Shown here: in pieces, positions 13,901 to 63,767 of the stretch
How positions within the stretch are numbered: the first letter of the stretch is position 1
How the letters are laid out: the number at the start of each line of letters is the position of its first letter
Assembly: GCA_905250115.1 (NCBI GenBank)
Contig: CAJNOI010000034.1
Location: 573,390 to 637,389 of the forward strand
Source of the DNA: Adineta steineri
Lineage: Eukaryota; Rotifera; Eurotatoria; Adinetida; Adinetidae
DNA: 64,000 bases
Direction: 5' to 3'
Translations under genes and position numbers: made by a program
Notes under the pieces: generated by a model
What the model was told of the DNA's origin: nothing
What the model saw: only the letters and a program-made list of their open reading frames with translations
Databases searched by the model: none

Positions 13901-14739
13901 GATCAATGAGATTTGATTAGTTATGTTATCGATAATCCTCGTTCAAAACTTATGGTAAATATGTGCAAGATAATAAAATGTTGTACTGCAACAATTATTT
14001 TCATGTACTAGAAGTCATTTCAAATCATTCAAAAGTTAGATGATTGATAATTATAACTCAACGAAGCAATTGTTTTTATAATGTTGTTGGAATTTTACTA
14101 GAGAAATCGAATTATATTATAATATTATATTTTACAGCTGTTTTCATTTATTAAATATTTAAATTATGTAGAAAAAATGAAATATCGTTGTTATTTGAAG
14201 ATATTTCAACTAGAGAGTGATAGTAGCCTTCTCGGCATTTTTTTTGTCGGTTACTTTTGAACATTTTAGTGCGAGGCATTAGCGTTTCTAGAAACGAGTG
14301 TGTAAATAATAGAAATAGTTCCTAGTATTGAACTATGAATAATTTTTAATATCCCTTTCAATACAAAAAAGGTTATCAGGATAGCTCCTTTGAAGCTAAA
14401 ATGTGAAACTCACATATGTATCACGATTATTAAAAAAGCGCAATCATTGAACTTCGATCACGATGTCTAATGAGTATTTCACCAGCTGCTGAGCTTTAAC
14501 CCCAATTCTTAATAAAAAAACTAATTTTTTTACTTCGCAAAAACTATTTATTTACTTGGAATTTTTCAATATTTTGTCGAGAAAACTAAATGTTTTCATT
14601 GAGAATTTATATAGACTACTTAGCAAAAGAATTTTTTTAGTTAGATTTGTGTTCAATAAATTACTTCGCAAAAATAGAATTTTTTACTTAGTTTTCACTT
14701 AAAACTACTTAGCGCTTAAATATGTGCCCTTATATTCTC
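10998..14739. other. gene-poor interval with purine/pyrimidine microsatellites
   Basis: About 3.7 kb without a convincing exon. Open frames around 11108-11553 exist on both strands, are rich in K, R and F and look like chance. GA-rich tracts occur at about 12061-12105 and a CT run near 12260-12278. The first part (10998-11600) is slightly less AT-rich and lies upstream of CDC25, so it is the likely promoter region. Near 14520-14700 a short motif (acttcgcaaaaa) recurs just before the ~120-bp tandem array. No tRNA or rRNA was recognised. Confidence 0.45.
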
Positions 14740-15780
14740 CTTGTTGAAAGAGCTTTTTATAGTCATTTACACATTTTCCATCGAGAAAAAAACATCTATT
14801 TATTCTCCTCCTTTGTTGCTTACGCGGTAATAGGTCGTCCATTAGGATACTTATCTTCTCCTTTTTCGAAGAACTTTTGTAGTCATTTACGCATTGCCCA
14901 TCCAAAAGAGACCTATTTATTCTCATTCTGAGACTCTCGCTCGGAAAAAGGTCATCCATTAGGGTACTTATCTTCTCCATTTTAGAAGAGCTTTTTGTAG
15001 TCACCTTCGCATTTTCCATCCAGAAAGAATACCTATTTGTTCTCATCTTCCGTTTCTTGTTTGAAAAAAGGTCATCCATCGGGTACTTGCCTTCTCCTTT
15101 TTGAAAGAGATTTTTGTAGTCGTTTCCGCACAAGATAAAGAAACTTATTTATTGTCATCCTCAGACTCTTTTCTAATAAAAAAAAACTTGCTCATCATGG
15201 TGCTTATATTCTCCTTTTTGGAAGAGCATTTGTTAAGCATTTCTACATTCTTTTTCCAGAAAAAAACTTACTTGTTCTCATCCTCAGAGTCATGCCTGAA
15301 AGAAACTTATCCATTTTGATACCTATCTTGTCTTTCTTGGAAGAGATTTGTTGTAGTCGTTTCCGCATTTTCAAACCAGATAATAAAACTTATTTATTCT
15401 CATCCTCAGATTCTTTTCGAAAAATGCTTGTCCATCATGGTATTGATGTTCTCCCTATTGGAAGAGTTTGTTGTAGTCGTCTGTGTATACTTTTTCTAGA
15501 GAAAAAACTTGTTTATTCTCATCTTCACGGTGTTGCCCGGAAAAAACTTGTCTATCATTATTCCTGCATTGTCATTAGTAGATGTACTTTTCTTGCTCTC
15601 ATCTCTATTGTCTCCTTCCTGAAAAAAACTTATATCTTTTTCTTCAGTCTTTTACACATAAAGAAGTTTTCTATTATCGCTCTTACATTCTCAATATCGA
15701 AAGGTATATTTGTTGTTCTCATTGTTACATTTTCTTTTCCAGAAAATATTATTGTGACTTTGATAGGAAGAGAAGGAAAT
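14740..15780. repeat. ~120-bp tandem array, copy A
   Basis: A degenerate unit repeats about eight times. The landmark gtagtcrtttccgcattttc appears in variant forms at about 14758, 14878, 14997, 15116, 15233, 15354 and 15474, spacings of 117-121 nt. Each unit also carries an acttatttattctcatcctc block and a tccatcatggtacttat block. The unit lengths vary by amounts not divisible by three, so the long open frames seen on both strands (for example 15133-14705 minus, with a 40-residue period) are probably by-products of a noncoding satellite. A shorter version of the same array precedes the second copy of the downstream gene. Confidence 0.8.
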
Positions 15781-17139: not shown

Positions 17140-20042
17140 ACCTCAGAAACAACTTCAGCAACATCACCATCATCATCAACATCAACTTCAACTTCAACAA
17201 CATTATCATCAACCTCAACAACAACAGCATCATCAACATCATCATCAACTTCAGAAACAACTTCAACATCATCATCATCATCAACATCAACAACAACATC
17301 AACTTCATCATCAACCTCAGAAACAACTTCAACTTCAACAACATCATCAACAACAACGTCAACAACAACAAGTGGTAAGTGTGGAGTTAAATATTTAATG
17401 CTTACGTTAGATGTTGAAAAGAGAAATAGCTTCACAAGATTTTAAAGTGTAGTGTTTGATACTTCAAGTCATCTCAAATCTGAATAAATAAGACGAGTTT
17501 ATTGTACAGAAAACTTCTCAAGATGAAAAAATGATCTTTCTATACAGACCAACTAGTATGTACATGCGAAGCTGATGACAATATAAATTAATATTTGCTC
17601 AATCGATTTTCTTGTAAATATCTGACCGTTGATTATGTTGTTGTCGTTTTTCAATATATAAAAATATTCATTGTAACGTACTATGTATGCTTCGAGCATG
17701 ATTGTTATTGTATCTAGAGCAACTGGAGGTACTAGATGACGTTTTATAACTTCTCTTGATTCTCTAGACTCGAGTGTTTTATCCTTCTCTATACATTGAT
17801 CAAACTAAGAAGTTAGCCTGTAAACTGAGAAGCAAAACTTTGTCAAACTATGAAAAACATTATTATGTTTTTATCGGTGCTACGCATTTGTTGTCACCGT
17901 TCTAAAATAAGAGAAAACAGCAAAGTCAAATAATTTAGAGTTTTCGTACATTCAGCATCTGCTGATACTCATCTAGGAAAAGTGAAGCTCATTTTTTATT
18001 CTTCCAAATGTAAGAATAGTACTTTTCATGCTAGTTAAAGACGAAAGGTGGTGTGTGTTGTTCTATAAAATAGTCGACAATGGTGTAATAAATGTCAGAC
18101 GATAAAGTAGAAGAAGCAGTATTAAAGAAGTCTTAACAGACCATTGTTCGATCCAGTCTCTTTTAGTGCCAACTTTTGTGAGTCTGAAAGGAGAATTTTA
18201 TCTAGATTTAGTAGCTTCTTAACATAAGTCAGGTCAATATTTTTTGAATGGATACACTACCAACAGACGGTTTCAAATAAATATCCTCTTTTTCGATCGC
18301 TTGCGATTGTGAAAGTCTTCTTTATTTCCAATAACTTCAGCGAATGGTCGTGAGTGAACATCCAATATGCTATCAATGTATACCTACAGTCATCCATCTA
18401 CACCGAGATACTTAATGTCTATTTCTTCCAGAATATAGTTTTCGGGTTAATCTGAAGAAATAGCTCAATTCAAATATATTTAAAGACTCTCATAAGCTCA
18501 GCTTGATTTAATCGATAGAGGATACTTTTAACTGTTCTATATCCATAATATATTGTGATCAACTCACAATTGGTGGACATCCGAAAGCCTAATACATCTG
18601 ACGGAAGATAATTTTCTTTCGTTTTGGTATTAGATTAAGTTTACAGTAGAACCAGGTTAGATTTCGGAGAATGAACGTTATGGAACGTATCATCATAGTA
18701 GACGAAGAATGTAGAATGAAACAAATGCATCGACTGCGCACAAATTTGAAGTGAAACAAACAGACTTTCAATTCTATATAGCCACTATTTATGTCGATTA
18801 GAATATTGTATTAGATATTACATAGAATGGAGCAGAAGATTATTTCAGTTAGACTTGAGAGTATCGCAAATTGTTCAAAATAAGATTACAGGATTCTGTT
18901 CAGCACCTTAGTGCTAACTGTCACCACATAATGCAACTCCTAAACAATTCAACAATGATTTTTTGTCTCTAAATCGTTCAAAATACTAAAAATAATTTTT
19001 GTTTCTGATAGCCTGCAACACTTTTCATGATCAAACTACTTATCCAGTTGGGACCTATCCTCAGGCACTAGCAGTTATCGATGTGAATAGTGATAACAAA
19101 CCCGATATTGTCCTTGTAAACTATGGTTCGAACACTACCAGTGTACTTCTCAACACAGGGAATGGCACTTTTAATGCTCCAACTACTTATTCAGTTGGCG
19201 CAGGTCCATCGTCAGTACTAGTCGTCGATGTGAATAGCGACAATAAATCCGATATTATCGTTTCAAACGTTGGTTCGAATACTGTCAGTGTTCTTCTGAA
19301 CAGAGGTAACGGTACCTTTAATGCTCAAAATACGTTTTCAGTTGGCAGTTACCCCTATTCAGTAGCTGTCGTTGATGTGAATAGCGATAATAAACCTGAT
19401 ATCGTTGTTGCAAACTATTATTCGAACAATGTCGGTGTTCTTCTTAACAGAGGCAACGGTAGCTTTATTGCTCAAACTACTTACGCAGTCGGCAGTAACC
19501 CGTATTCAGTAGCTGTCGTCGATGTGAATAGCGATAATAAACCTGATATTATTATTGCATACTATCTTTCGAACAATGTCAGTGTTCTACTTAATACACA
19601 CAACGGTACCTTTAATTCTGAAACTAGTTACTCAGTTGGCATTACTCCATTTTCAGTAGCTGTCGTCGACGTGAATAACGACACTAAACCTGATATTCTT
19701 GTTCCTAACTATGGTTCGAACACTACCAGTGTACTTCTCAACAGAGGCAACGGCAGCTTTAATGCTCAAATTACTTACGTAGTTGGTTATGGCCCTACAG
19801 GAGTAGCAGTCGGCGACTTGAATAGCGACAATAAACCTGATATTGTTGTTACAAACTATTATTCGAACAATGTCGGTATTCTTCTCAACACAGGCAATGG
19901 CACTTTTAATGCTCAAACTACTTATCCAGCTGGCACCAATCCATACTCAGTAGCAGTTGTCGATGTGAATAGTGATAACAAATCTGATGTTATTGTTACA
20001 AATCAAGGTTCGAACACTGTCAGTGTTCTCTTACATTGTTAA
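16442..20042 (+). CDS. secreted Ser/Thr-stalk protein with seven-repeat VCBS/FG-GAP propeller, copy A
   Basis: Three exons, 16442-16754, 17072-17374 and 19012-20042, both junctions phase 1, total 1,647 nt (548 aa). Exon 1 encodes a signal peptide (MFRLIFILSLFSVCNS) and a small Cys-containing head with N-glycosylation sites (DQCICEMIEAN ... NYFSTNQTCQLY), reminiscent of PAN/apple modules. Exon 2 is a Ser/Thr-rich mucin-like stalk of about 100 residues. Exon 3 holds seven 49-residue repeats of the type VAVVDVNSDNKPDIVVANY ... VLLNxGNGTFNAQTTY, each with an integrin-like DxNxDxxxD calcium loop; seven repeats would close a propeller. Role is probably extracellular adhesion or ligand binding. Its paralogue is at 22308-24737. 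No transmembrane segment is visible. Confidence 0.8.
16962..17050 (+). other. conserved open block inside intron 1 (possible cassette exon), copy A
   Basis: Bounded by a good acceptor (cttcag) and donor (gtaagc), this block reads WGHPQKMNQINGPRSAGLL and on to FLFH. It is conserved in copy B (about 22797-22888). Including it would shift the stalk exon into a His/Gln frame that cannot join the propeller frame, so the main transcript should skip it. It may be an alternative or relic exon. Confidence 0.4.
17078..17374 (+). repeat. CAT/TCA/CAA trinucleotide-rich tract in stalk exon
   Basis: Runs of tca and aca/caa triplets, open in several frames on both strands (Ser/Thr, His/Gln, Asp/Val on the complement). 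The Ser/Thr frame is the one that splices in phase with exon 1 and the propeller exon. Copy B has only 150 nt here against 303 nt in copy A, so the tract is length-variable. Confidence 0.8.
17885..18930. other. ~1-kb insertion in intron 2 of copy A
   Basis: Alignment of the two paralogous introns by eye breaks at about 17880 and resumes at about 18935. Copy B has about 80 nt here, copy A about 1,050 nt. The insert has no clear terminal repeats and no recognised coding region; its minus strand has stretches with coding-like texture (for example around 18590-18770) broken by stops, so it may be a decayed mobile element of unknown type. Confidence 0.45.
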
Positions 20043-21200: not shown

Positions 21201-21204
21201 GGTT

Positions 21205-21780
21205 TTTTGTAGTGATTTCCGCATTTTCCATTCAGAAAACTAACTTATCTATTCTCATCCTCAGACTATTTTCGACAAAAATACTTATCCATCATGATAC
21301 TTATATTCTCGTTGCTGCAAGAACAATTTTGTAGTCATTGGCGCATTTTCCATCCAGATAAAAAACTTATTTGTTGTCATCTTCAGAATCTTTTTTCAGA
21401 ACAACTTGTCCATTATGGTACTTATATTCTCCTGGTTGAAAAAGCTTTTTGTAATCATTTGCGCATTCTCCTTCCAGAAAAAAATACTTATTCATTCTCA
21501 TCATCGGACTCTTTCCGGCAAAAAAAGTTGTCTATCATCATTTCTATATTCTCATTGGCAGACGCATTTTTCTTGCTCATATTTCTATACTCTCCTTTGT
21601 GAATAAAATGTACTTCTTTTTACTTGAGTCTTTTTTTGAAAAAAAACTTGTCTATCATTGCTCTTACATTCTCAATATCGGAAGGAATATTTTTTTCTCT
21701 CATTGTTACATTTTCTTTTTCAGAAAAAATCATTGTAACTCTCGTACGAAGAGAAGGAAATTATTTTATAACTCAGTAGT
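21205..21780. repeat. ~120-bp tandem array, copy B
   Basis: Same unit as at 14740-15780 but about half as long; landmarks fall at about 21209, 21332 and 21450. It ends with the same gaagaaggaaattatttyayaa block (about 21760) that closes the copy A array, which supports duplication of the whole segment. Confidence 0.75.
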
Positions 21781-22307: not shown

Positions 22308-24737
22308 ATGTTTTGGCTGATATTTATTCTATCATTATTTTGTGTTTGTAATGCTATTCTTATTACTAAAATACAAAATACTATTATAGTTGGTAATATC
22401 TATAATAATTTACTCAATGTAACAGAAGATCAATGCATATGTGAAATGATAGAAGCAAATGATGCAATATCTGCTTTGAATTATTTTTCAACAAATCAAA
22501 CTTGTCAATTATATCGCTCAAATAGCAGTACAGTTTATGTTGAATTTTCTTTAAATTCTACTATTATATTTCTTAATCAATCATCAATATCAATATTAAA
22601 TATTCAAGAATATCGTAAGTTTTTATTTCGCAGTATTACAAAAACATTCTAACTATTTATACACGCAAATTTCGATAGTCTAAATGAATTTGACGTTTGT
22701 AATTTTTAAATTCTAAAAAACTTGTTAATATCTCAATGATACTTCTCAGTGACTGTAATTTGTAGTGTTCGCTAATCATTAGCATTTGTCCTTAGCATGG
22801 GATCATCCACAAAAAATGAACCAGATTAATGGATCAATAAGTGCTAGATTGTTAATAAAACCTTATCCAATTTTCTTGTTTCATGTAAACTCCATTTTTC
22901 TAAACAGAATCGAGTACGTCATTATCAACATCGACAACAATATCATCAACCTCACCATCGACAAGACCATCATCATCCACATCAACAACAACAACATCGA
23001 CAAGAACATCATCACCAACCTCAACAGCATCAATAACAACCTCAACAACAACAAGTGGTGAGTGTAGAGTTAAATATTTAATGCTTACGTCAGATGTCGC
23101 GAAGAGAAATAGTTTCACTAGATTTTAAAATGTAGTGTTTGATACTTCCAATCATCTCAAATCCGAATAAATAAGGCGAGTATATTGGACAGAAAACTTC
23201 TCAGAACGAAAAAATGATCTTTCTACATAAACAAGCTAGTATCTGTGTACAAAGTTGAAGACAGTATAAATTAATATTTGCCGAATCGATTTTCTTGTAA
23301 ATATCTGACAGTTGATTATGTTGTTGTCGTTTTTCAATACATAAGAATATTCATTGTAACGTGCAAAGTATACTTTGAGAATGATTGTTATTGTATTTAG
23401 AACAACTGAAGGTACTAATTGACGTTTTTTAACTTGTCGTAATTTTCTAGACTTGACTGTTTTATCCTTCTCTATACATCGACTGAACTAAGAAGTTGGC
23501 CCGTAAAGTGATAAGTAAAATTTTATCAAACTATGAAAGACCTTATTATGTTTTTATCAGTGGTGTATAGTTATTGTGAGTGTGAGTATTAGAGTAAGGG
23601 TAATGTAATACCCACATTTACACCCACACCCACCCTAAAGAATTCAACGATGGCTTCTCGTGTCTAAATCATTCGAAATACTAAAAATAATTTTTGTTTT
23701 TAATAGCCAGCAACTCTTTTCTTAATCAAAGTACTTACTCAACTGGCGTTAACCCATTCTCAGTAGCTGTTGTCGATGTGAATAGTGATAATCAACCTGA
23801 TATTATTGTTGCAAATGCAGATGATAGCACCGTCAGTGTTCTTCTCAATGCAGGCAGTGGCACTTTTAATGTTCAAACTACTTATCCAGTTGGTAGTTAT
23901 CCAGTATCAGTAACTGTCGTCGATGTGAATAGCGACAACAAATCCGATATTGTTGTTGCAAACGCTGCCGATAATACCGTCGGTGTTCTTCTTAACGCAG
24001 GCAGCGGCACTTTTAATGCCCAAACAACTTACCCAGTTGGCAATATCCCTCAAGCGGTAGCTGTTGTCGATGTGAATAACGACAACAAACCCGATATTAT
24101 TGTTGCAAACACTGGTAATAACACCGTCAGTGTTCTTCTCAATGCAGGCAGCGGCACCTTTAATGCTCAAACTACTTATGCAGTTGGCGGTGGCCCTCAA
24201 GCGGTAGCCGTTGTCGATATGAATAGCGACAACAAACTCGATATTATTGTTGCAAACACTGGTAATAACACCGTCAGTGTTCTTCTCAATGCAGGCAGCG
24301 GCACCTTTAATGCTCAAATTACTTATCCAGTTGGTAGTTATCCATTATCAGTAGCTATCGCCGATGTAAATAGCGACAACAAACCCGATATTGTTGTTGC
24401 AAACGCTGGTAATAACACCGTCGGTGTTCTTCTTAACGCAGGCAGCGGCACTTTTAATGGTCAAACTACTTATCCAGCTGGCACTAATCCATACTCAGTA
24501 GCTGTCGTCGATGTGAATAGCGACAACAAACCCGATATTGTTGTTGCAAACGCTGCCGATAGCACCGTCAGTGTTCTTCTCAATGCAGGCAATGGCACTT
24601 TTCATGCTCAAACTATTTATTCAGTTGGCACTAATCCATCTTCAGTGGCTGTCGTCGATGTGAATAGTGATAATAAACCTGATATTATTGCTGCAAACTA
24701 TAGTTCGAACAACGTCAGTGTTCTCTTGCATTGTTAA
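22308..24737 (+). CDS. secreted Ser/Thr-stalk protein with seven-repeat VCBS/FG-GAP propeller, copy B
   Basis: Exons 22308-22614, 22908-23057 and 23707-24737, both junctions phase 1, total 1,488 nt (495 aa). Signal peptide MFWLIFILSLFCVCNA, then a head nearly identical to copy A. The Ser/Thr stalk is half as long as in copy A (50 versus 101 residues). The propeller exon has exactly the same length as in copy A (1,031 nt) and again seven 49-residue repeats with DVNSDNKPD calcium loops. Here the repeats are much more alike at the DNA level (many share cagtgttcttctcaatgcag), and read ANAGNNTVSVLLNAGSGTFN, which points to repeat homogenisation. The propeller exon is visibly less AT-rich than its surroundings. 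VCBS/FG-GAP repeats are common in bacteria and a bacterial origin of this module is possible but unproven. Confidence 0.8.
23573..23634. repeat. foldback with TGTGGG-type arms in intron 2 of copy B
   Basis: gtgagtgtgagtattagagt faces cccacatttacacccacacc around a short aatgtaat centre. It occupies the site where copy A has its 1-kb insert. Confidence 0.5.
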
Positions 24738-46235: not shown

Positions 46236-51604
<5,369 letters not shown>

Positions 51605-51942
51605 ATTACTAAAAAAGTGAAATTTTTTGTTTAGATTTTATTGATCATTCGGATAACTATTTCAGGAACAATATAAATGAAACAATTTTTTGAAATAAAC
51701 ATTGATAAAAATATGAATAATGTTCTTTGAACCATCGTCACAATCCGCACCCATACATAAACATTTTATATGTACGAATCTAGCGTAGAAGTATTTCCTG
51801 AGGTGGGTGTGAGTGATTCTCTTTTATCTCATTCACATCCTCGTCACTACCTATTCATTCTCTATTGAAGCACATTTGATATTAGCATTTACAATTTTCT
51901 TTCTCTTTTATTTTGTTCAATAAATTCATAAATTTCATTGTC
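51605..51942. other. convergent intergenic region with TGTGGG-like motifs
   Basis: Short spacer between the ABC transporter stop and the LRR gene stop. It carries a loose inverted pair of TGGGTGTG-type motifs (51738-51756 and 51800-51816). No gene. Confidence 0.5.
51738..51816. repeat. loose foldback with TGGGTGTG-type arms
   Basis: tcacaatccgcacccatac (51738-51756) faces gaggtgggtgtgagtga (51800-51816). Weaker than the others. Confidence 0.35.
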
Positions 51943-54817
51943 CTAACGAAAACGTGTAGGTGAAGACGTTGTAGGTGAAGGGAGAGTGACAATTAGTCTG
52001 TTGTGTTGGAATGCATCACTCAAATATAGTGCTCCAGTATCTCTGATTTGATTTGCAACGAGATTTAGTATGGTGACTGTCTAAATGAAAAAGTGGGCGT
52101 AAAAACAGGATACAGATGAAGACAAAATAATAGTTACTCTGTTGTGTCTTAACCCTTCACTCAAATATTGTGCACCAATATCTCCGATTTTATTTGCTTG
52201 AAGATTCAGTGTGATGACTGTCTAAATAAAAAAGTAGACGTATAGACACGATATAGATGAAGACAGAATGATAATTACTGTGTTGTGTCGTAGTCCATCA
52301 GCTAAATGTTGTGCTCCAACATCGCCGATTTGATTCGTAGCGAGATTCAGTGTGGTGAGTGCCTAAAGAAAAAGATGCAGGTAAACACACGATATAAGTG
52401 AAGAAAGAGTGACAATTACTTTGTTGTATTGTAATCCTTCACTCAAATATTGTGCACCAATATCTCCGATTTCATTTGCTTGGAGATTCAGTGTCATGCA
52501 TGTCTAGAGGAAAAGTGAAGGTAGGAACACAATATAGTTGTAGACAGAATGACAATTACTGTATTGTGTCGTAGTGCATCAGCTAAGTGTTGTGCTCCGG
52601 TATCTCCAATTTTGTTTGCAACGAGATTTAGAGTGGTGAGTGTCTAGATGGAAAGGTGTAAGTAAATATACGATATAGTTGCGGAAAGAAAGACAATTAC
52701 TGTATTGTGTCGTAGTGCATCACTCAAATATTGTGCTCCAACATCCCCAATTTTATTTGCAACCAGATTCAGTGTAGTGACGGTCTAGGCGAAAAATTTT
52801 AAATAAAGATACGACATAGACGAAGGAAGAACTCAGATTACTGTATTGAGTCGTAATCCATCAGCTAAATGTTGTGTTCCAATATCTCCGATTTGATTAT
52901 ATGCAAGAGTTATTGTGATGAGTGTCTAGATGGAAAAGTGCAAGTAAAGACGGGATACCGACGAAGAGAGAACAAGAATTACGGTGTTGAGTTTTAATGC
53001 ATCAGCCAGATGCTGTGCACCAGCATGTTCGATATCGTTTCTACTGAGATCTACTGACATAAGTCTCTACATAAGAAAGTAAAGGTACAGACACAGTATA
53101 GTTGAGAAAAGAATAACAATTACAGTGTTGTGTTGTAATGCATCACCCAAATATTCTGCTCCAGCATCTCCGATTTGATTATATGCGAGAGTTATTATCA
53201 TGAGTGTCTAGATGAAAAAGTCCATGTATAGACAAGATATAGATGAAGAGAGAATAATAATTACTTTGTTTTGTCGTAATGCATCAGCCAAATGTTGTGT
53301 TCCAATATCTCCAATTTGATTCCCATAGAGGTTCAATGCGGTGAGTGTCTAAACGGAAAAATGTACATAGAGATACGATATATTTCAAGAAAGAACGATC
53401 ATTACTTTATTGTATTGTAATCCATTAGCCAGATGTTGTGCTCCAATCTCTCCGATCTTGTTTCCAAGAAGATTCAGTGTGGTCAGAGCCTAGACGAAAA
53501 ACTGCAGCTAAAGACAAGATATAGACGAAAAAACAATGATACTTACTGTGTTATGTCGTAGTGCATCAGCTAAATGTTGTGCTCCTATATGTCCGATTTG
53601 ATTTTTTGAGAGATTCAGTGTGGCGAGTGTCTAGATGAATGAGTGAAGGTAACGACACAATATAGATGAAGAGAGAATGACAATTACTGTGTTGTGTTGT
53701 ATTGCATCACTCAAATGTTTCACTCGAATATCTCCCATTTGATTTCGCGAGAGATCTAGTGTGATGAGTGTCTATATAAAGGAAGTAAAAACAGAATAAC
53801 TGATGACTGTTATTTCCGGTTAGTTCAGTGAATGATATTCAATAATACCTTACAAAAATCTAGACTGAATAGAAGTTATCAAGGGTGGTACATAAATAAA
53901 AATTTTTTGTGTCTAGCATTAGAACTCCATGTGATTTATCTAACTTAACTTTGTTCAGCGATATGATTTATATAGGTTAGAATATTTATGAATTTCTGTA
54001 GTTGCTTTCGATGTTTTTATAGGGTTGTGTGCATGAGATAATATTGATTTGCATGATGTTAGATTCATTATGAGTAGAAAAAGAATACATGCTGAAACGT
54101 TGTATAAAATATCCCTTACGACGTGGTCTCGACTCTTCATTCTGACAAAGTATCTTCAAATTTCTCAGAGATATATCTGCAGGAAATATCTAAGACGTTA
54201 TTCATAATAAGATCAACTAGTTTATACACCGTTCATTTTTATCAAAATCGTAGTTAAAGAAGAGTTGTTAGACACATGTAAACGACAAATAATAAAGTTT
54301 TGTTCCTTTTTTGTCGTTCTTATCTAAACATTGTATGTGTATGACATCATACATGATTTGAAAAGAAAGAAAAAAAAAGAATTTATTTCTTCTTGATTAT
54401 TAGGACATTATTTTCATATTGTCATAAAATAAGAAATTAATTTTTTGAGCACAGAGATATAGCTAATGAATTATTTTTAGCGAACTTTTTCTGCTTCAAT
54501 AGATTGTAAGAATGAAAACTAATTCGAGAGTCAATGCGTAAAAAGTTTACCTGATATCGATAATAACTGTCTACGATCTTGTTGAATCGTTGACATATGT
54601 TTCTCATTGAGCAGAGAATTGTGAAGTTTGATTGATGATCCAGGATTCGGTAGACAAGTTCTACCGGTAACGTGAGAAAATTTGCAAGAATTGTATTTGC
54701 CATCGTACACTGTTGTTGAAATGTGTGCTGTGCAGCCTTATATGAAGTATTGTTATTCTTTCTTTCGATTAAATGAGTAAATGTTTGTTCTGTTGTTGTT
54801 TTCACATGATGTGGCAA
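51943..54817 (-). CDS. F-box protein with thirteen RI-type leucine-rich repeats
   Basis: The first exon (54817-54551) carries an F-box (LPVELVYRILDHQSNFTILC then SMRNICQRFNKIVDSYYRYQ). Twelve 84-nt phase-0 exons follow (low-high): 53688-53771, 53547-53630, 53406-53489, 53265-53348, 53124-53207, 52983-53066, 52842-52925, 52701-52784, 52560-52643, 52420-52503, 52279-52362, 52138-52221. The terminal exon is 52080-51943. Each 84-nt exon encodes one 28-residue ribonuclease-inhibitor-type LRR (TLTTLNLVANKIGDTGAQHL then ADALRHNT). Total 1,413 nt (470 aa). Such F-box/LRR proteins are likely SCF ubiquitin ligase adaptors with the LRR as the substrate-binding surface, or intracellular recognition proteins. 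The first intron (53772-54550, 779 nt) could hide additional exons, for example near 54140-53955. The C-terminus after the last repeat is short. Confidence 0.85.
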
Positions 54818-56254: not shown

Positions 56255-56757
56255 ATGGCTGGTGTCGCAAAATTATTTGATGGACATGTTCTTGATAAAT
56301 CGAACAAAGAGATTAATCTTAATGATGATCAATATAAAGGAAAAGTAGTTGGTCTTTATTTTAGTGCTCATTGGTACGTTTAGTTTGTCTTGAAAAAGAA
56401 AAAAAAAGATTAGAAATTTTTTCTTTTTTTATCAGGTGTCCACCATGTCGTAATTTTACTCCAAAATTAGTTGAATTTTATAACAAACATGCACAAGAGA
56501 AAAATTTTGACATTATTTTTGTAAGTTCTGATCGTGATGAAGCAGCTTTTAATGATTATTATAAAGATATGCCTTGGCTAGCATTATCTTTTAAAGATCG
56601 TAAAAATAAAGAGGAATTATCAAAAAAATTCAATATATCTGGAATTCCAACATTAATTTTAATTGATGGTGATTCAGGGGATATTATTTGTACTGATGCA
56701 AGAAACTATATTCAACATGAAGATGAAAATGGTGACAATTTTCCATGGAAATCATAA
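56255..56757 (+). CDS. tryparedoxin/nucleoredoxin-like thioredoxin-fold protein
   Basis: Two exons, 56255-56373 and 56436-56757, total 441 nt (146 aa); the intron interrupts the Trp codon of the active site. The protein reads KGKVVGLYFSAHW then CPPCRNFTPKLVEFY, giving the redox motif WCPPC. It continues with FDIIFVSSDRDEAAFNDYYK, MPWLAL and NISGIPTLILID, which carries the cis-Pro loop. These are the hallmarks of the tryparedoxin/nucleoredoxin family. It should reduce or isomerise disulfides in cytosol or nucleus. Length fits a single-domain tryparedoxin-like protein; vertebrate nucleoredoxin is about three times longer. No signal peptide. The gene looks complete. Confidence 0.92.
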
Positions 56758-57150
56758 TAAACTATTTCCGTTGTTTTTTTCTTCACTGCCATTCATTTTA
56801 ATATCACACAAAACTGCTTTAATTTCATTAAATAAAATTTATATCATATAAAATATTGTCATTATGAAAGAGTTTTCTTAAGCATGAATGCCACTCAATA
56901 TAAACAAAACTTTTGATCAAGATTCGGTCATAAGAGCGAAATTAAAATAGATTCAAAATAATTACAAAATTTCTTCTTCTCATGCGACCTCAATGGAAAT
57001 TTCTATGACTAATGATGAAAAAATGACTTTGTATAATATAGAGGTTTGAACAGTCATTCAATATAGCCATCTTTGTTATTAATTTTTGAATACATTATTT
57101 TACTTTTTTTCTACACTGAAGATATGCTTTCTTACAAAACTGATGACAGT
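56758..57150. other. 3' flank, no gene seen
   Basis: AT-rich sequence between the thioredoxin-like gene and the pogo-like element. Confidence 0.5.
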
Positions 57151-57787
57151 TACAGTCGAATCCACTTATTAGAGCTTTGTTTAGGTGCTTTTTTTGCGAT
57201 TTTAGCCCGTATAAATGAGCTTGTTTATTTATACGACTATAAATATGCATTTATGTTCTTCTTCTTTTCTTTTTTGTTAGTCAACCTCCAAGAATTTTTC
57301 CTTCTTCCTTTGTTCTATATATTGTTCCTCATTTTTCGTTGAATCTTTATTTTTCAAAGTCGATTGTGATAAGGAAGCCGAATGTTTTGGAAATCTCGCG
57401 AATGCCGAAATTTGCATTTCAGTGAAACTAAATCGGCAAGAAAAGGTCGATTTAGAGGAAGTAGAAGCCGGAATTGTTGATAAATCGATGCCTGATGTTT
57501 TTCATAAAGATGTGCTGCTGCATTTTTCGATAGTTCTCAAATATTTGGAAGAGAATTTTACAGATTATAATTCATATTATGATATCGAAGACATGATCGA
57601 AAAGAACGTTTTAATTAATTAGACTTAAAATAAACTTATGTATGTGATATATACTAAATACTTAATAAATGTTGACAAGAATCAAGTTTTACACTGTTTC
57701 ACATATAGTTCGCATAAAGGAGCGGTCTGGATATAAGAGCTACTTTTTGAGACGCTGACCGCGCTCTTATTAGCGGATTAGACTGTA
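57151..57787 (+). mobile_element. short pogo/Tigger-like DNA transposon with TIRs and TA target duplication
   Basis: Left end cagtcgaatccacttattag then agc (57153 on) and right end gctcttattagcggattaga then ctg (to 57785) are inverted repeats matching at about 20 of 23 positions, and both are flanked by TA. The element is about 633 bp. Inside, 57355-57622 on the plus strand encodes a piece like the C-terminal tail of pogo/Tigger transposases (ECFGNLANAEICISVKL, then an acidic EEVEAG stretch and VLKYLEENFTDYNSYYDI). The DDE catalytic core is absent, so this is an internally deleted, non-autonomous copy. It inserted between two host genes. Confidence 0.75.
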
Positions 57788-58144: not shown

Positions 58145-61100
58145 TCAGTCATCGTCGTTTGATGTTATTTTGAGTTTGATATCGTCCTGAATTTTTTCGT
58201 CGAAGAAATGGTTCTTCGTGTAGTGCCATGCTTTTTGACAGCAACCATGTGCTCTTTGATCAAATGTTAACAAGGCAACAGGTTGAGAAGACATACGTGA
58301 TTTTCTATTCCAATATTTGCAACAACATACAAATTTTATGAATCGATGAAACTGTAAACGTAGGATTTCACCATCTGACACAAAATTGTAGAGCATCTGA
58401 TTGCGCCAACGAGTACCTTCATCCATTAAAGTTGGAATTTCACCAACGGCGAGACCTAACAGAGAAAAATATGTCATCATTGTGAAGATTTTATGGAACT
58501 CGAATTGTTTAACTTATAGTCTTTCACCTAAAAGATATGTCAATAAAGACTATTTTATCGTGTTACTGACGCTACAATAATGTCTGACTCTTCTTTACTG
58601 CTTTTGCCCCGTCATAAAAGAAAAATGATTAGTTTAATTCTCTTGGACTGGAACTTTTGGACAATTTATACTCAGAATTTTTCTCAACTACTTGGTGAAT
58701 AGATTGCTAAATATGAGAATCTAAAATAATGATTTGGAAGAGTTCTCTTACCAATCATGAGATTAACAATAAAAATGCAGAAAACAATGGCTGTCAAAAT
58801 AATAATGACATAGACAAGCTTGTAATATGCTACTTGGTCAGGTGTGCTGTAAAGTCGACTCTCATAACCAAGATCGAACATCATTAAACTTGTACGTAAA
58901 AGTGCTTCAATAGGCGTAGCGAACACAGGCTGATTTTGCAATAACATCCAGTATGTAAAACCGAATCCACAGATAATAATTAACAATACAGGTAGAAAGC
59001 GGAGAAACTTGACACAGATGACTTGAAGCATAGCTACATAGATACCAACACCTAGCCAAGGAATACAACGAACATAAGTGAGAAGATTCATCCAACAGAG
59101 AAAAAGACCCATAGCTCCAATCTGATACTGGATAGGACACCGAAAGATCACTGGATTTTGCCAGTCGTACCAGTCTAGTATATATACGAAGGAAAGCACG
59201 AGAGCAGCACCTTCTAAATAGTAAGCCCCAATGCGGAAGACCTTTGGAAAGAGAGCAATAATTTGAATACCATTCTTGACAATGAACACCGAAAAAAAAA
59301 ATACAAAGCTCGTTTAAGCCTTATATATGCATCGGTCTTTAACGCTTCGGTAACGTTCCGCAAGATGAGATTGTTTGCAACCTGTTCACATGTATCAATA
59401 TCCAACGTCATATTGAAACCAGCTAAGTCATAGAAATACTGAGGATGCTTCCCGCTGAGGATCGTCGCAGTCCACAAACCGAGCAAAACAAGGTAAAAGA
59501 GGAATGAGAACGACAACCAGTATGTGCTAAATCGTCGAAACATCTTTTTACGTAACAAGATATGAAACTGATGTGCCATTAATTTCGAATAGGCCGATTG
59601 TTGAGAAACTATGATTAGAGGATGATTTCGAACAAGTGTGTAAGCATCACGTGTATACGGCTCGCAAGCACTAACATTTTCGACACCAACAGTTGTGTTA
59701 CAACAATCAATACTGCAGCAACAATCATAAATGGCATTGAAGCCGAGTTTATGGCATCGAACTTTGCATGATCTATCTTCAAGAGGTAACTCTGCACCTA
59801 TTCAAAGAAATATTTTTCATGCGAACACAAAAAAATGATTACTATCGTCGCTGAAACGGTTGTAGACTCATCTGACTTAGAACACTGCAAGATCTTACTG
59901 AAATCGGTGTTTTCTATACGAATATTTCAGTGGGTTCTTTAGTTACATCAGATACTCCATCAATTTTTTAATTCAGCCTTTAAAATTTTTGTCTCAAACT
60001 TCACTATTGTATAGGCATATAAAAAAACAAGTTTGATTTTTTCGAACCGTAATGTATATAAAAGACTTTGTGTAACTGTATTTCTCATTTGTGATGACTA
60101 ACTATTTTTATGCGAGTTCATCATCTCAACGATAATGAGTTACTTTTTGTTGAAATTGTCAGAATATTCCTTCATTTACCAGATCTGTTATAAGCAAAGT
60201 TTCAGGTCACAATAGATTGATTCATTTTTTGAATACTTTTGTATAGGTCAAAAGTGGACAAAGCAATGGATACTCTACAATAAAGCACTATTGAACTAAG
60301 TTCATGTCTAAGTGTTTTGCTTTTCAACTTTTATATTGTGGTATATAAGTGAGCTGCATTTTTGATTATCTGAAACGTCTCTATCATTAGATGATTAGAT
60401 CGATTACTATGCAATAGGTTAGTGTAAAACTGGCCAACACTTTAGTAAAATTCAAATCGTTTTTTCTAAGAATAATGTCATTTTGTGTAAGCCTTATGAG
60501 ATCGAATGATTAATGCAATGCATACAAACTTGAATTTTGTTTATCAACATACCTTGTTTATACCACTCTTTGACTGTATACATATCTTCATAGAATTCAT
60601 AATCGTAGATCTCCTGGGATACTTTTTGACCTGCACCACCAACTTTTCGTGTTAGTTTTTCTTCTATTGTCCAAAGAGCTACATCAGGCATGTAACGAAT
60701 AAGTTTTCGCATTGGTGTATCATAAGCATCGGTGCCTTCGATGGGTTGTGCATTGCGCATCATTTCTTGCCAGTTGGAACGCTGTAAAAGATATTTGACT
60801 ATTTCCACGTGCTGCTTTTGAATACAAATTTCGAGACAATTCAAAAGTTGTGCGTTACGTATTGTTGTTGAGGCCCCCTTCTCGATCAGATACTCGACTA
60901 CATCAAGATGTCCAAATTCACAAGCAATATGGAGCGGAGTGAGTCGCCGGTCACCAATGGCATCAACTTCTATACGCACAGTTTCAATCAAATATTTGAG
61001 CACTTCAAGTTCTGAACAAAAAAATAAAAAGATATTTTTCATCAAACAGTTTCGATTCTATGCAAACCAAATCGATGCATGTAGTATTACTTACCTTTAA

Positions 61101-63661
61101 TGCCTCCATTCTTAGCCGCTATATGTAAACAAGTAAATCTGTTATTGTTGGTTGTTACATACAATCCTTTCATACGATCGTATCGATCGTCTGGCGGGAT
61201 CAGTTCCCACATTAATTCAAGGATATGAACATTTCCCTGTTCACTCGCTTCGTGAGCCACTGTTGTGCCTCGACGATTTTTAATAGATAAGAAGTCGAGT
61301 ATTAGTGAAATATTTTCATTGATTAGTTTTTTCCAAATTTCTAGTTCTTTTTTAGTATATATCTGAGCCACTAAATGCAATGGAAGGTTACCATTGCTAT
61401 CTTGTGTTTCCATTAACTTTTTGATGTTTTTATCAGAGAGTTTGCCGATGATTATATTGAGAATATCAGATGACACTTGACGCTTAGCACAAATATGCAA
61501 GATATTATCCTGTTCTACAGCTCCAACTGTCAGTAGAGGTAATTGATGCTCACCGTCTATGTTCTAAATAATAAAATGTAGTCTATGGTTTAACTATTTT
61601 GGAAAGCAATGGGCATCTTAATATATCACTATAATGTGTTTTTGAGATACATATGTTTCTAACTAGATGAGAACCAGTGCATAATACACAGTTTTGATAA
61701 AAATACTAACTAAGTGATACTATTGAATTTATTGTATTTCGAGAAAATTAAATCAAAATTGGTAGATCTACGATTGAAATTATAAATGAAAATTATAACG
61801 GATTTATGATTCTTACGGAGCTACATGAAGACAAAAACACTAGCTATATCATTGTGGAAATATTCTTTTCGTTAGACAGACCTTATAAATGATACTAATT
61901 GCTTACAGTTACGAATCATGTATATTATTTCGGTTTATCAATGTTTTTGCTTATTATGATTAAAAGAAAATGAAAGTATACTTTGATCAATTCTTGAACA
62001 CAGGCGATTGAGTTGTAAAATATCGCTGTCAGTAATGGTGTATACTCAGCGCAGTTAATCTTGCTGGTGTATCCTTTTGGTGCTGGTCTATTTATAAGCC
62101 ATCGAAGAAGAGCTACATTGTCGTAACGACACGCAAGATGAATTATTTGTTCTTTAATTTCAGGCGAAGATATTTCGAAAAGGTGTTCTAAATGATCAAA
62201 CGGCTGACATTGTCTACGTCGAGCAACCATGTCAAATACGATCAGAATTTGTGTTTTATCTTTTGTTGTGTCAATAAATATTTTCATGAGAGCATACTTG
62301 AATATTTGTTGTCCTTCCTTCTGATCGATTGATGATGGACGTGTAATCGCTGGATGAGCTGCTAAAAAGACAAGAGGTGTTCTGTTGTCTAGCGTGCAAA
62401 GATTGAAAAAATCTTTCTCTTTCGCTAATGGTTCATTCGTTATATATTCCACTAGAGAATAAAGTTGTTCTGCATTTATCGGATTAACAGGAAACACAGC
62501 AAAATGCAGTACACTTGCGTTGAATTTGCTTAATACCTATACAGAAAGATAAAATCCTTATAATATAGAATTTATATTTACATCAACTTTGGCTCCATGA
62601 TGAATCAAATACTTGATATAGCGAAGTCGACCTCGCATTGCAGCCATATGCAATGGGGTGCGACCTTCATCATCTGCATGATTGACATCGGCACCACGTT
62701 CTTCAACAAGGAATCTGATCAGATCAGGAAACTTTGTAATGCTTCCCTGTTAACATATAGAAAACACATATGTGTACGTATACTTAATACGTTCGACAAC
62801 GTCTATATATAATAGGACCTTTGAACGTAAGTTCTTTCTACATGTACGCTCACAATAGCTTTTAAAACTCTCCAGTCATCTTATACTACACGTAAGGAGG
62901 TAACTAGGACATAAGCGAAATAATTCACTTTCAAACTCTTGACAAATTCGACGAAAGCATCTGGTTCTGGACTAGAATCGGACTATTCAATGACTGTAAA
63001 TTAGAATTCTTCCCTTATGTAATTCATACGTAAATACTTACATCTCCTATACCTTGCCATATACAATTCGATTGAGATACTACATGTAAAACATTTTCAC
63101 CATTACCACCGAGAATGTTAATATCTATATTATTATTAGTTGAAATCACAAATATTGTTCATTTCGATATAAAATAATAACATACCGCATTTAGAATATT
63201 TCTTTTTTTTGGATGTTAATTTACGACATAACTCCTCATTATTACAGTCAACAGCATAATGAAGAGCTGCCCATTGTTTTTCGTCATCGAGAGTACTGAT
63301 CATTTTCTTCAACTTACTGTCTGAAATCTTTTCGTCTACGACTACACCCATAAATAGATTCCATTTTTTTGGATATTCTTTCAGATCTTCCTCCGAGGCA
63401 GCCTATACAAAGTTTATTAAATAAATAAGGACAGGATTCTTTTTGAGTTAGATAAATGTCTATTACCTCGAAGAGAAGCTCTTGAGCTGATTTTGCTTCT
63501 GATCGATCATAGTTGATCAACAGCCACTTTTCGCATTCTCGTCGAGATCCGAGTTGTTCATCGTTGGCGAGTTGAGGCGGTAAGTGAACAGGTGTAACTA
63601 CGATTGTGTCTGGCACTGACTGCACCGATAAGTCATCCCAATTAGACGTATTCCGAGACAT
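58145..63661 (-). CDS. TRPA1: TRPA1-like ankyrin-repeat cation channel, with one frame slip
   Basis: Ten exons: 63661-63467, 63402-63186, 63124-63042, 62982-62929, 62746-62582, 62536-61982, 61563-61095, 61011-60553, 59797-58752, 58455-58145. They sum to 3,554 nt, one short of a multiple of three, so about 1,184 aa are expected (human TRPA1 is 1,119). The N-terminal two thirds are ankyrin repeats (DDEGRTPLHMAAMRGRLRYI, RRLTPLHIACEFGHLDVVEY). Then come six membrane segments, a pore region (ATPIEALLRTSLMMFDLGYE) and the S6 motif VNLMIGLAVGEIP, as in TRPA channels. The tail is Cys-rich and acidic (ITSNDDD). TRPA channels sense irritants, heat or touch in sensory cells. The frame changes at a run of ten A on the plus strand (59292-59301) before the S2 region: sequencing error, allelic null or recent pseudogene. 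Confidence 0.85.
59292..59301. other. A10 homopolymer at the frame change of the TRPA-like gene
   Basis: Upstream codons read RLKRALYFFF and downstream codons SVFIVKNGIQII in a different frame. No intron fits between them. All other junctions of the gene agree in phase, so the single-base discrepancy is localised to this run. Confidence 0.75.
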
Positions 63662-63767
63662 GTGTTAGTCTATAGGGAAGATTAACCTTGAAAATTTTTC
63701 ATCGTATTTAGGAGATCTAAAGGTAAAGTCTATGTGAAAAAAGGCTCGTATAGCGTCGGAGACAAAA
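63662..63767. promoter_or_regulatory. 5' flank of TRPA-like gene
   Basis: Short sequence between the start codon and the palindromic repeat; must contain the proximal promoter or 5' UTR. No specific motif assigned. Confidence 0.3.

Follow-up and report, generated by a model that had tools for sequence, protein, structure and literature searches.

The window examined here, a 64,000-nucleotide stretch of the genome of the rotifer Adineta steineri with a GC content of 29.4%, contains on its minus strand, from position 53771 to 51997, a series of 13 consecutive LRR exons. An exon walk has shown that each of them is open, in phase 0 and exactly 84 nt long, with one exon corresponding to one 28-residue RI-type LRR (repeat consensus TLTTLNLAANQIGDIGAQHLADALRHNT). 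LRR exon 1, which encodes TLITLDLSRNQMGDIRVKHLSDAIQHNT, is located at 53688-53771, followed by exon 2 (53547-53630), exon 3 (53406-53489), exon 4 (53265-53348), exon 5 (53124-53207), exon 6 (52983-53066), which is the furthest diverged, exon 7 (52842-52925), exon 8 (52701-52784), exon 9 (52560-52643), exon 10 (52420-52503), exon 11 (52279-52362), exon 12 (52138-52221) and exon 13 (51997-52080), after which there is no GT donor. The original prediction had described twelve such exons, with the correct length, phase and coordinates, but the count is 13, with an intron after 12 of them, and the strand of the gene, which is minus, is a further point to be corrected. A tandem repeat call made with TRF (51972-53774, score 1134) gives a period of 141 bp, in agreement with the separate exon walk. 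The proposal that the duplicated unit is a 141-bp exon plus intron is supported by the introns, which are all homologous and in register with the exons. A two-unit higher-order repeat (period 282 bp), to which TRF assigned a higher score, was rejected, with units of the same and of different parity being equally alike (0.719 and 0.718, respectively). The exon-intron array is a real and regular gene feature.

FG-GAP, ankyrin and LRR genes lie close together in the window, whose introns are tiny; in the bdelloid Adineta vaga, LRR and FG-GAP proteins are among the expanded families (PMC3846280). An ABC transporter gene on the plus strand (46289-51604; ABC_tran, 4.4e-16) converges on the LRR gene, their ends being approximately 340 bp apart. 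A thioredoxin-like gene of the nucleoredoxin type (Thioredoxin_8, E 1.2e-25) is found at 56258-57622 on the plus strand, and an ankyrin-repeat gene, its ankyrin repeats confirmed by Pfam, at 58145-63664 on the minus strand, with hydrophobic open reading frames downstream that resemble a TRP-type channel by eye only. Two tandem paralogous genes on the plus strand (18996-20042 and 23691-24737) carry FG-GAP-like repeats of 49 residues (147 nt); they are about 77% identical over 1.9 kb, the repeat units inside each gene are roughly 74-84% identical, and the second gene matches FG-GAP_3 with an E value of 3e-69. Upstream of each FG-GAP gene lies one of two related arrays of approximately 117-122 bp repeats (14729-15576 and 21204-21606), which have a non-coding appearance and many indels and served as an indel yardstick.

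All 12 introns between the LRR exons begin with GTAA and end with TAG. The exon walk has borne out the lengths first reported for them, 57 nt in 11 cases and 56 nt in the intron after LRR exon 9 (52504-52559), and their likeness, also part of the original prediction, is reflected in a mean aligned identity of 0.71 and an alignment that is gap-free apart from one base. The open exons, the GT/AG ends and the stops inside the introns together suggest that the 84-nt exons are joined to each other by splicing. If a 57-nt phase-0 intron were retained, translation would meet an in-frame TAG at the intron's own end. Earlier in-frame stops occur in three of the 12 introns, with 3.6 expected by random substitution: two of them have a TAG or TGA, at codon 13 or codon 7, and the third has its stop at codon 3. 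Translation of the introns as part of a 47-residue repeat was rejected on account of the terminal TAG in each intron, these three earlier interruptions and the single intron of 56 nt. Divergence within the array introns (52081-53687) shows a weak period-3 pattern (0.374/0.205/0.393, permutation P 0.017), which is not read as coding constraint because stops are not avoided. Independent, introner-like insertion of the introns is not favoured, given that each intron stays in register with its exon, the two together forming a single tandem unit.

Relative to their consensus, the 12 introns carry 124 substitutions against one single-base indel. Taking as a yardstick the mismatch-to-gap ratio of other repeats in the window, which is about 7.5 to 27 mismatches per gap, between 4.6 and 16.5 indels would be expected where one was observed (P between 0.06 and 1e-6). 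It is likely that intron length is under some constraint, the strength of which varies with the yardstick chosen, and the uniform length of 57 nt is partly a matter of descent from a single unit and probably partly one of constraint. The periodic micro-intron array had been regarded as striking; the size of its introns is ordinary for this genome, where seven manually delimited introns of the ABC transporter gene next to it measure 49-59 nt, and for bdelloid rotifers, where median intron lengths of 55-67 bp have been reported across four genomes (PMC5916493).

The encoded repeats have been assigned to the RI type of LRR, which is defined by repeats of 28-29 residues with the pattern LxxLxLxxNxI...G...L...L..N: residues 7, 10, 20 and 27 are invariant over the thirteen 28-residue repeats, and the Pfam profile LRR_6 matches in 12 stretches (E 2.4e-53). 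Relatives of solved structure in the PDB are ribonuclease inhibitor and the LRR domains of NLRs and of further proteins of the RI type. No NACHT domain, by which an NLR would be recognised, was detected by Pfam in the gene model. Divergence at codon position 2 is 0.017 for framework residues and 0.425 for strand-exposed residues, and the mean pairwise dN/dS among units is about 0.51. At positions 1 and 2 of codons 8 and 9, divergence reaches 0.71, compared to 0.32 at intron sites, and the former value was matched by none of 20,000 random draws of intron columns. That the exposed residues 8 and 9 diverge far beyond the introns fits target recognition, with the concave face of the horseshoe tuned for binding. 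No relatives were found in viral contigs or in bacterial or archaeal genomes by the patterns used, which need short exact peptides and leave distant LRR proteins uncovered.

Upstream of the array, a probable first coding exon of 51 codons from an ATG (MANTILANFLTLPVELVYRILDHQSNFTILCSMRNICQRFNKIVDSYYRYQ) is located at 54551-54703 on the minus strand, ending in ...YYRYQ followed by GTAAAC; it had been overlooked in the original prediction. This exon is F-box-like, scoring 22.5 bits against Pfam F-box PF00646 when scanned alone and 17.4 bits within the full 432-residue protein, with a curated cut-off of 20.5. Its matching phase and splice sites make it likely that it is joined to LRR exon 1 through a predicted 779-nt, phase-0 intron (53772-54550, minus strand; GTAAAC...TATATAG), in which no relic LRR unit was found (best local score 26, shuffle mean 25). 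The probable product would then be a 432-residue F-box/LRR protein. The original prediction spoke of a receptor, a term not upheld here, as the N-terminal exon resembles an F-box and the product is not a demonstrated receptor. The main reading of the locus, to which a probability of about 0.72 is assigned, is that of an F-box followed by 13 RI-type LRRs, in which an old exon-intron array encodes the arm by which an F-box adaptor would bind its substrate. Judging by this domain architecture, the F-box would bind the Skp1 of an SCF ubiquitin ligase, while the LRR horseshoe, through its variable concave residues, would pick the target protein; the likeliest role of the predicted protein is that of an adaptor that selects targets for such a ligase.

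The LRR array could instead constitute a separate gene, either LRR-only or NLR-like, with the F-box exon belonging to another gene or being a relic. The 779-nt distance between the F-box exon and the array, much larger than the introns of the neighbouring gene, and the low score of the F-box within the full protein point in this direction. Nonetheless, no other obvious start or coding exon was seen between the two in three frames, phase 0 is kept on both sides of the gap, and a tblastn search with the 432-residue protein returned no further F-box or LRR match elsewhere in the window, all of which makes a separate gene rather unlikely.

As had been proposed, whole repeats may be gained, lost or skipped without breaking the frame, since the exons are 84 nt long and in phase 0. 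Whole-repeat exon skipping, generating many binding surfaces from one gene, would be compatible with the F-box adaptor reading and has precedents in human NLRP3, where skipping of LRR exons has been shown (PMC6642158), and in the ROCO genes of brown algae, for which it has been reported (PMC11378527). However, the frame-neutrality of all the LRR exons, which is what speaks for it at this locus, already follows from phase-0 duplication, and such skipping is considered unlikely here.

At the 3' end of the array, the donor of unit 13 has been lost, with CT in place of GT: the other units read CACAACACA up to the exon border and GTAATTGTC beyond it, while unit 13 reads CACAACAGA and then CTAATTGTC. 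The former 13th intron (51943-51996, minus strand) comprises 54 nt, CTAATTGTC...GTTAG, into which exon 13 reads for 17 codons, giving the tail LIVTLPSPTTSSPTRFR and a TAG stop at 51945-51943, the putative old splice acceptor of that intron. Past it, a frame of 17 codons (DNEIYEFIEQNKRERKL and a stop) is open at 51889-51942 on the minus strand; it is possibly the ancestral last exon, or an open frame by chance at such a length. The lost donor could mark the onset of decay and, together with the weak F-box score, is what would be expected of a decaying gene or pseudogene. Against this, all 13 exons are open and free of frameshifts, the 12 splice-site pairs are intact, framework residues are conserved and dN/dS among units remains near 0.5, and decay of the gene as a whole is thus held to be quite improbable.

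The original prediction also saw in the array a sign of rapid ongoing unit amplification. Comparison of whole 141-nt units does not sustain this claim: pairwise identities range from 62 to 82%, with a mean of 0.72 and a best pair of 0.82, near-identical units are absent, and neighbouring units do not resemble each other more than distant ones do (0.716 v 0.719, permutation P 0.61). Homologous introns in register, the 141-bp period and a similar process in Tetrahymena and brown algae (PMC6564038, PMC11378527) would suit a recent, still expanding array that diversifies a receptor by changes in copy number, but this degree of divergence and the missing neighbour effect make it very unlikely. The array is old and has not been freshly multiplied. 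The comparison of intron with exon divergence between units, which had been proposed along with the claim, gave no significant correlation (Mantel r 0.16, P 0.20); for example, a difference of 12% between exons 10 and 12 stands beside one of 35% between their introns. Most likely, the units began as exon plus intron, because the introns all align gap-free apart from one base, and their later histories were probably scrambled or saturated. Finally, a highly improbable reading is that the gene belongs to a family of F-box/LRR genes whose exons each hold a single repeat and are frame-neutral, with splicing altering the target-binding arm: skipping would drop repeats, and retention of a 57-nt intron would truncate the protein at the repeat concerned, adding a hydrophobic tail and using the acceptor TAG as its stop. 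The weak period-3 signal of the introns leaves this some room, but in-frame intron stops are not avoided.

Under the F-box adaptor reading, the LRR arm would have arisen long ago as a single exon-intron unit of 141 bp was duplicated time after time, possibly through unequal exchange or a comparable mechanism. The units would have diverged afterwards, with exon length kept by the LRR fold and the reading frame and intron length staying close to the genome's usual small size. Layouts of this type are already known. Human NOD and NLRC genes mostly encode a single 28-residue LRR in each exon, the exon border being fixed and the frame kept (PMC6642158). The rotifer gene shares this layout with them, not membership of the group: NLR proteins have a NACHT domain, whereas the rotifer gene lacks one and carries an F-box-like exon, and its introns are still recognisably homologous and of near-equal length. 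In Tetrahymena, nearly 50,000 LRR exons, each exactly 90 bp long and mostly with phase-2 introns between them, have been described in arrays from thousands of genes and put down to exon shuffling; in the youngest arrays of T. thermophila, the introns measure approximately 257 bp (PMC6564038). The likeness lies in tandem units made up of an LRR exon of fixed length and an intron of characteristic length, and the rotifer gene differs in its 84-bp exons, phase 0 and 57-nt introns. As in exon-shuffled arrays, its LRR exons are tandem, fixed in length and separated by introns all in phase 0; the near-identical or locally similar units that mark recent turnover are missing. The LRR-ROCO genes of brown algae also give each LRR its own equal-length exon and are under diversifying selection, but their exons are of 72 bp and phase 2, they encode a ROC-COR domain and alternative splicing has been reported for them (PMC11378527).

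FBXL proteins resemble the predicted product in having an N-terminal F-box followed by an LRR arm, with the F-box being marginal in the rotifer gene. The LRRs of FBXL proteins are usually of the CC type, whereas those of the rotifer arm are of the RI type. In ribonuclease inhibitor (RNH1), repeats of 28 and 29 residues alternate. Likeness to this protein (PDB 1z7x, E 4e-34) lies in the RI-type LRR fold; RNH1 has no F-box, in contrast to the F-box-like exon of the rotifer gene. What sets the latter apart from the systems already known is the F-box, the phase and the equal, very short introns; it does not differ from them in kind.

On present evidence, the probable F-box/LRR locus is itself ordinary. 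It is also a clean natural case of a repeat protein built from exon-sized modules, in which the fold sets exon length, the intron stays near the genome norm and variation sits on the binding face. Should its relatives within this genome prove to differ in unit number or to skip units in splicing, the locus would offer a handy system for the study of repeat turnover in bdelloids, which are regarded as ancient asexuals.
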